64,000 nt of DNA from contig NZ_CAAHFG010000001.1 in NCBI RefSeq assembly GCF_900890425.1, positions 1,674,001-1,738,000 on the forward strand, read 5' to 3'. This document shows, piece after piece, positions 14,819 through 16,278 of this stretch. A program made the translations under genes and the position numbers. The notes below the pieces were generated by a model. It searched no databases and was not told the origin of the DNA. It saw nothing but the letters and a program-made list of their open reading frames with translations. Within the stretch, counting starts at the first letter, position 1, and each line of letters begins with the position of its first letter. This DNA is from Pontiella desulfatans. Its GTDB lineage: Bacteria > Verrucomicrobiota > Kiritimatiellia > Kiritimatiellales > Pontiellaceae.

Positions 14819-14840
14819 CGTAGACGAAGCTTCGTCTACG
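14819..14840. repeat. 22-bp perfect palindrome carrying a stop codon
   Basis: The sequence cgtagacgaagcttcgtcta plus cg is its own reverse complement. The TAG stop of the minus-strand glycosyltransferase (14836-14838) lies in it. Confidence 0.9.
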
Positions 14841-16278
14841 TTCTTAGCAAATTGAACCGTTGCGGTTGCTGGAACCGGTCGAGCAGGGCGGAGGCATCGG
14901 CCGAACCGACGTCCCCCGGTTGTGTGGCGGCCAGGGCGCGATAGAGGCCAAGCAGGCGCTCGCCGTAGGCATCCAGGCTGTATTGATCGAGCGCAACCTG
15001 GCGGTTGCGTTCGATGAGCGGGAGATTGGGCGAGGGGGCGAAAGGGGGTAGCTGCTTCCGGTCTTCGGGATGCGCAACCAGATGCCGGATGACGTTTTGC
15101 TGAAGTTCCTCGTCCAATACGCCGAAATCGACTTTCCCGTCGATAACCAAGGCCGCCTTGGCCTCATCCAACGTTTCCGGAACCCACATCTTTGAATAGG
15201 CTTCGGCGCTGGCGCGCATCGCTGTTTCCAGCGCGGTGTGGAATGCCTTTTCGCCCGCCCATTCGAGGGGGATGGGGAGGGCGTCGTAAAGGGATGAAAG
15301 GTCGAGGCCTTCTTGTTCGAAGTCGGTGGTGATTTCGGGGAGCTTGCGTCCGATGAGCATCTTGCCTTCGAGCCACGGTTCGAGGAACGCCAAGCCAAAC
15401 CCCTCCTGGATGCTGGTGGTCATCAACGCTTCCGCATTGCGGATCAGTTCGCCAAAGTCGTGCTTGCGTCCGGCGTCGAATTCAACGGGCAGGTTCAGCT
15501 CCTCGGCCAGCGCCTCCCATCCCTTGTAGTGGCCCTGCCATTTCGGGTTTTGCGGGGCCAGGGTGCTTTGGAACAGGTAGCCCTCCGGAGCGAGCAGGCT
15601 CCATAGCAGGAACTCGCCCATGTTTTTCCGGCGGATGGCGCGCGCGGGATAGACGATGGTCTTTATGTGGGGCAGACATTCTTGTCTGCCCAGGGCAGGC
15701 TGGAAAGCCTGCCCCGCATGTTGGGTAACCGCATTCGGCAGTTCGTGCACATTCGGAAGGCCGATGTCTTCCAGAAACGATTTGTCGCGATAGTTGATTG
15801 GCGCATACCAGACATGGTCGGCGGTGGGATAAAGCATCGCGTCGAGTTCGTTGCCGAGTTGTTCTTTCAATAGCCGGTAGTTTTCCGGTCGGCCATCCTC
15901 GGCAAAGTCGTGCGGTTGCAGCAATAGGCGGCACCCCGCCTTGGCCAGATGCCAAACGAGCTGCGGTGTAAAGCTGTTTTTACCGAGCGAATGGTTGTGG
16001 ATGTGCCAGACGTCCGGATCGCGCCCCAGCAGGCTGCGGGCGGTGAAGCGGAGGTCTTCGGCCAGCTTGCCCGAATCCAGCACGGAGTTTTCCGAATAGG
16101 CCAGGGCTTCGTACGGTTCCGTGATCGGGGTGAGTTCAGCGCCGGGGGCGGGCGCCTCGCCGGTCAGGCAAAGCACGTCGACCTCATCGTTGAGCGATTC
16201 AACCGCCCGCTCAACCACCCGCGTTACCCCGCCGGGCCTTAGGTGATAGTGAATTATTGCTACTGCCAGTTTTCTCAT
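14836..16278 (-). CDS. GT4-like glycosyltransferase of the glucosylglycerate cluster
   Basis: 480 residues. The start MRKLAVAIIHYHLRPGGVTRV at 16278 is the usual GT-B opening with a donor-binding glycine loop; a frame to 16308 adds an unsupported N-terminus. TIVYPARAIRRKNMGEFL begins the C-terminal donor domain, and SIQEGFGLAFLEPWLEG is the GT4 EGFGxxxLE motif. Between the domains, about 18 residues (HAGQAFQPALGRQECLPH) are coded by a double-hairpin repeat at 15668-15715 and look inserted. The stop codon falls in a 22-bp palindrome. It is 86 nt downstream of gpgS on the same strand, so it may extend glucosylglycerate or its phosphate with another sugar; that is inference. Confidence 0.8.
   Translation of the reverse strand: MRKLAVAIIHYHLRPGGVTRVVERAVESLNDEVDVLCLTGEAPAPGAELTPITEPYEALAYSENSVLDSGKLAEDLRFTARSLLGRDPDVWHIHNHSLGKNSFTPQLVWHLAKAGCRLLLQPHDFAEDGRPENYRLLKEQLGNELDAMLYPTADHVWYAPINYRDKSFLEDIGLPNVHELPNAVTQHAGQAFQPALGRQECLPHIKTIVYPARAIRRKNMGEFLLWSLLAPEGYLFQSTLAPQNPKWQGHYKGWEALAEELNLPVEFDAGRKHDFGELIRNAEALMTTSIQEGFGLAFLEPWLEGKMLIGRKLPEITTDFEQEGLDLSSLYDALPIPLEWAGEKAFHTALETAMRASAEAYSKMWVPETLDEAKAALVIDGKVDFGVLDEELQQNVIRHLVAHPEDRKQLPPFAPSPNLPLIERNRQVALDQYSLDAYGERLLGLYRALAATQPGDVGSADASALLDRFQQPQRFNLLRT
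15668..15715. repeat. Double-hairpin repeat in frame inside the GT4-like gene
   Basis: Hairpin a: ggcagaca/tgtctgcc (15671-15690). Hairpin b: gggcaggct/agcctgccc (15693-15714), each with a 4-nt loop. Outer ggggcag and ctgcccc can also pair. It stays in frame as HAGQAFQPALGRQECLPH. Confidence 0.85.

Follow-up and report, generated by a model that had tools for sequence, protein, structure and literature searches.

The 64,000-nucleotide stretch of Pontiella desulfatans DNA analysed here (the window) carries on its minus strand a glycosyltransferase gene, whose reading frame runs through a pair of short, inverted, hairpin-forming repeats. The features of the locus are as follows.

14839..16278, minus strand: GT-B (GT4-like) glycosyltransferase gene, host of the insert, 480 aa from MRKLAV (open reading frame, Pfam, AlphaFold2)
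15667..15720, minus strand: 18 codons, HAGQAFQPALGRQECLPH, added to the glycosyltransferase linker (translation, ortholog comparison, AlphaFold2)
15665..15719, no strand assigned: head-to-head dimer of two inverted REP units, 55 bp, with a 1-nt spacer and GTGG-type tags at both outer ends
15693..15719, plus strand: REP unit A, GGGCAGGCTGGAAAGCCTGCCCCGCAT, its tag mutated to GCGG (contig C1:1689693-1689719)
15665..15691, minus strand: REP unit B, GGGCAGACAAGAATGTCTGCCCCACAT, with an intact GTGG tag

The N-terminal half of the glycosyltransferase matches Glyco_trans_4_4 (Pfam), and its AlphaFold2 model has a two-domain GT-B fold (pLDDT 84, pTM 0.85), the nearest structures being of the GT4 type, e.g. 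GlgM, BshA and MshA. The insert corresponds to residues 187-204, modelled as the coil joining the last helix of domain 1 to the first strand of domain 2, with pLDDT below 50 in its core (residues 196-202); it is thereby predicted to be located in a disordered inter-domain linker. According to the initial annotation, an 18-residue insert separates the two GT-B domains, and its coding sequence is a pair of adjacent hairpins. The first point is borne out by the translation of the reading frame, Pfam and the AlphaFold2 model, and the second by the folding of the window dimer into two adjoining perfect hairpins with stems of 9-10 bp and 4-nt loops. The dimer is very stable as DNA (fold z = -6.8) and as RNA (z = -6.1), with 0/200 shuffles as stable, and nowhere else in the window do two perfect stems with a minimum of 9 bp come within 5 nt of one another. 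The limits first proposed, 15662-15719, were correct at the end, but began 3 bp outside the exact element (15665-15719).

The genome of P. desulfatans (8,658,305 bases, 6 contigs) contains many further copies of the repeat: BLAST gave 45 matches, and a covariance model found 65 units. The consensus unit, GGGCAGRCWRGAAWGYCTGCCCCACAT, is 27 bp long. Its stem has at most 9 bp and closes on a 4-nt loop; its tag reads CCAC, or GTGG on the opposite strand, each position being conserved in roughly 90% or more of the units in this genome. Outside the stem, the tag bases are kept in 44/45, 40/45 and 41/45 units, and the flanks are variable. Among 41 distinct units of this genome, three stem pairs have changed on both sides; there are 32 double-change cells, whereas shuffles give 10.1 and sliding the partners gives no more than 1. 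Units are found in inverted pairs, as head-to-head dimers in this genome and in relatives, and tail-to-tail at the borders of RAYTs (REP-associated tyrosine transposases), the presumed transposases discussed below. A conserved tag, dispersed copies, covarying stems and inverted dimers are together the hallmarks of a REP dimer. The notion of a chance low-complexity linker or a linker expansion, with no mobile element involved, can draw on the varying length and sequence of the linkers in orthologs, but is refuted by the many dispersed copies of the same DNA, for which the chance expectation in the window is 0, and we attach practically no weight to it.

The copies lie at unrelated locations, many of them intergenic and others inside genes. 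In-frame copies occur in genes for a sulfatase (just N-terminal of the catalytic domain), a 4'-phosphopantetheinyl transferase, an AddB/RecB-like nuclease, a CCA-adding enzyme and an NAD(P)-binding oxidoreductase (a degenerate unit). Other long frames around copies (L034, L038, L039 and L041) gave no Pfam match and were not counted as genes. In relatives, the gene for the AddB/RecB-like nuclease carries REP units in-frame at two sites (L045, L100 and L140), the first of which is also occupied in P. desulfatans. The suggestion that the peptide belongs to a spreading element that keeps reading frame in unrelated proteins of PVC bacteria thus holds in its main point. With many copies lying between genes, keeping the frame has to be understood as having a consensus without stop codons in six frames, and presumably only harmless insertions have survived. 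The consensus dimer is indeed free of stops in 6/6 frames, a property shared by 9% of random 58-mers from the window, which makes it favourable for in-frame insertion, though not remarkable.

Orthologs of the glycosyltransferase have unrelated linkers of about 10-17 residues, and the REP insert is absent from all those read but one (G009). The initial annotation would have been refuted by a peptide conserved at this site in all orthologs; this is not the case, and even the one exception is diverged. In the G009 gene (L063), the dimer occupies almost identical codon positions and is read in the same phase, and the loop of its first hairpin holds an extra ~48 nt, also in-frame. A single ancestral insertion common to G009 and P. 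desulfatans was considered and rejected, as the tree does not join the two (support 0.6-0.9). Recurrent insertion at one linker and several losses would both be compatible with the pattern. Compared with the longest ortholog linker, that of the window gene has just a few residues more, so that the insert may have taken the place of some of the original linker, whose ancestral sequence cannot be recovered.

Hairpins of this kind could also have been kept as RNA or DNA signals, acting in transcription attenuation, mRNA stability or the binding of gyrase or IHF, with the peptide as a mere by-product. The very stable RNA fold and the covarying stems would suit such a function, and such roles have been ascribed to REPs elsewhere (PMC3733652). 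A signal of the glycosyltransferase gene would, however, hardly be missing from all but one of the orthologs read, nor does that function account for copies at unrelated places, within and between genes, or for a conserved tag outside the stem, which a pure RNA hairpin does not need and a transposase site does. We therefore consider this explanation unlikely.

Scanning GTDB genomes for the exact pattern yielded a list of 72 stretches, chiefly from Kiritimatiellales/Pontiellaceae, including Pontiella sulfatireligans, with further ones in Hydrogenedentes, Desulfarculales, metagenome-assembled genomes (MAGs) labelled Lentisphaerae and a Singulisphaera MAG. The suggested recurrence in PVC bacteria holds, but the family is not confined to PVC, with exact units in MAGs of Hydrogenedentes and Desulfarculales. 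In three Hydrogenedentes loci (L090, L093 and L118), the same hairpin unit forms regular arrays with a period of ~38-44 nt (76-80 in part of L118). Opitutus terrae was absent from the scan listing, which does not exclude its presence there. Most of the relatives compared are MAGs.

Several of the scanned stretches contain paired units 650-750 bp apart, separated by the coding sequence of a RAYT (VVMPNHVH) whose frame is continuous with that of a host gene. The domain order of the composite protein (Pfam, NCBIfam) is a PolyA_pol head and RNA-binding domains, followed by Y1_Tnp / REP_Tyr_transpos and then HD; judged by these matches, it is a CCA tRNA nucleotidyltransferase, an essential enzyme of tRNA repair, with the RAYT inside its HD part. 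At the borders of the RAYT, the protein contains peptides that the REPs encode, GQTGKSAPHVGQAFQSAH being one. Units of the same family flank it in eight relatives (G005, G009, G012, G017, G028, G039, G041 and G006, the gene being split between contigs in the last; loci L084, L085, L088, L097, L112 and L154-L161), and do so on both sides wherever both are readable. In other genomes, the site is empty or holds a REP dimer without a RAYT (G021) or a single unit. The CCA-adding enzyme of P. desulfatans has one in-frame unit, GGGCAGACTGGAGAGTCCGCCACACAT, coding for KGQTGESATHAP, exactly at the RAYT site. We infer that this unit is the remnant of a lost RAYT, although the arrival of a lone REP would look identical.

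The embedded RAYT matches NF047646 with E values of 1e-14 to 1e-23, mostly under the curated cut-off of 80 bits, and exceeds the PF01797 cut-off of 23 bits. It diverges somewhat faster than the host halves, with dN/dS of about 0.08-0.22 as compared with about 0.06-0.3 for the latter (dS is saturated in the more distant pairs), and is under purifying selection. AlphaFold2 gave no usable fold for the composite (pLDDT 42, 7 rows). In G028 (L158), a segment comprising the REP and the C-terminal part of the RAYT has been amplified in-frame, resulting in a 950-aa frame.

The number of units tracks this RAYT. All eight genomes with a CCA-RAYT composite of this type have at least 15 units (range 15-53), as opposed to 3/50 others (Fisher 8.6e-8; 1.1e-6 within the order; no correction for phylogeny). 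The three exceptions are P. desulfatans itself (65 units), G001 (44) and G002 (30). Since the CCA site is empty in G001 and G002 despite their many units, another RAYT may serve the same REP family besides the one embedded in the CCA-adding enzyme. In P. desulfatans, no RAYT flanked by the unit was found among 19 Y1_Tnp loci, none of which has units within 1.5 kb, and the case for mobilisation in this genome therefore rests on the relatives. The lack of a RAYT with these flanks, the presence of the family in distant phyla and the 19 Y1_Tnp matches of several types would also be in keeping with a MITE or an IS relic moved by a transposase other than a RAYT, either of the DDE family or of a different Y1 family. 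Such an origin does not, however, explain why units border the RAYT in eight relatives and why their number follows it, and the GTGG tag agrees with the GTAG/GTGG tag of RAYT-linked REPs (PMC3733652); we regard it as very improbable.

Taken as a whole, the evidence makes us rather confident that the insert is a GTGG-tagged REP dimer of the REPIN/BIME type, a non-autonomous element copied by a RAYT, that lies in-frame in the GT-B linker, with the RAYT embedded in the CCA-adding enzyme of relatives as the best candidate for its mobilisation. According to the mechanism we propose, a RAYT (HUH/Y1 family) would recognise the tag and the hairpin on single-stranded DNA and copy the REP dimer, which would have become inserted in the flexible segment that joins the two GT-B domains. 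The glycosyltransferase gene would have stayed open because the consensus is free of stops in all frames and the linker tolerates extra residues. The source would be a RAYT between units of the same family inside the CCA-adding enzyme, as in related Kiritimatiellales. With that RAYT absent from P. desulfatans and one in-frame unit left at the CCA site, the copies in this genome are probably immobile now. No target-site signature was found at the insertion, and the tag of unit A in the window copy is mutated, both of which count against this reading. That the RAYT cuts and moves the units is inferred, in the absence of cleavage or mobility data, and so is the production of full-length, working host proteins, for which there are no expression data.

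The CCA-adding enzyme is not the only host. Of the best 51 RAYT matches in relatives, 49 fall within open frames no shorter than 332 aa (median 730). For a next, more distant group of 17 full-length matches from the same genomes, the median frame is 245 aa, which corresponds to a free-standing gene (Fisher 4e-11). The two groups were split by score, and the matches were not chosen by frame. Hosts that share one frame with a RAYT include XseA, PriA, HypF, a B12-binding radical-SAM protein with DUF4080 (L164, in G021) and a BREX PglX-like methyltransferase, as well as AlaRS and a creatininase-family protein in other families of the phylum (loci L164, L166-L173, L175-L179, L181 and L218-L221). 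Many of these loci are bordered by REP-like peptides of other families. Three long frames around RAYTs at the phylum level (L222, L223 and L224) were left out, since they contain runs of N or seem to be open by chance. One of them, L223 (G115), resembles a low-molecular-weight phosphatase; in this frame, part of which reads N, REP-like peptides (GRANPPGEPGSxTHxPRLGRDASPYPTA) recur in-frame many times around a RAYT. In P. desulfatans, a Y1 transposase frame continues from a cobyric-acid-synthase-like frame (L017, G000:C2:338459-338665, 683 aa), and another continues into a further domain (L013, G000:C1:3934658, 615 aa). We incline to the broader proposal, with considerably more reserve than for the insert itself, that a clade of RAYTs in Kiritimatiellales and the same phylum resides as in-frame domains in housekeeping genes, with REP-encoded linkers at its borders. 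Such RAYTs would be made by translation of the host gene, would be sheltered since only a precise, in-frame loss is tolerated, and would scatter REP dimers, including the glycosyltransferase insert.

REPs are usually described as extragenic, REPINs being typically so, and RAYTs as free-standing domesticated genes. The window element taken alone is of a kind already described, namely a tagged REP dimer that lies in-frame. A close parallel is found among the GTAG REPs, short tagged stem-loops that are dispersed and mostly form head-to-head dimers, with RAYT genes flanked by REPs; intragenic in-frame copies encode 20-30 aa, O. terrae is the richest in intragenic GTAG repeats, and its GTAG-20 has the tag mutated to GTGG in most copies (Di Nocera et al. 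2013, PMC3733652). Tag, head-to-head pairing, dispersal and in-frame intragenic copies are all shared with the window element; the organism is another one, and we found no mention in that study of RAYT genes in-frame inside host genes. REPINs are single mobile units made up of two inverted REPs, and they depend on a RAYT encoded at another place of the genome (Bertels and Rainey 2011, PMC3116915). They are similar in both respects, but the present candidate RAYT is known from relatives, as an in-frame domain of their CCA-adding enzyme, and is absent from the window genome. Rickettsia palindromic elements likewise are in-frame palindromic repeats that add a peptide to genes of unrelated function; RPE-4 and RPE-6 have been equated with CGTC-tagged REPs, apparently without a dedicated transposase (PMC3733652). 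They differ in sequence and tag from the present family, which has a GTGG tag and a candidate RAYT. In TnpAREP subclass 2.4, REPs occur in-frame inside the tnpAREP genes (Quentin et al. 2018, PMC6006769), i.e. within the transposase gene, whereas here the transposase lies within host genes. Inteins offer an analogy only: they too are selfish coding elements in-frame inside essential genes, but the RAYT appears to stay as an inserted domain, and no self-splicing HINT domain was found in the composite proteins by Pfam and NCBIfam scans. No previous description of RAYTs residing in host genes turned up in a limited literature search; on this weak evidence, the in-frame residence of the presumed transposase in host genes would be the new part of the system.

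The picture that emerges is one of enzymes acquiring new linkers from REP units, and of a presumed transposase lodged as a domain within essential proteins of different families. In an earlier survey, unexpectedly long proteins were set aside as products of gene fusion or misannotation (Quentin et al. 2018, PMC6006769), and composite proteins such as those described here may be dismissed in the same way. If the proposal is true, it would explain the long persistence of a RAYT that does not mobilise itself, as its loss must be precise and in-frame, and it points to one route by which bacterial proteins may gain new inter-domain segments.
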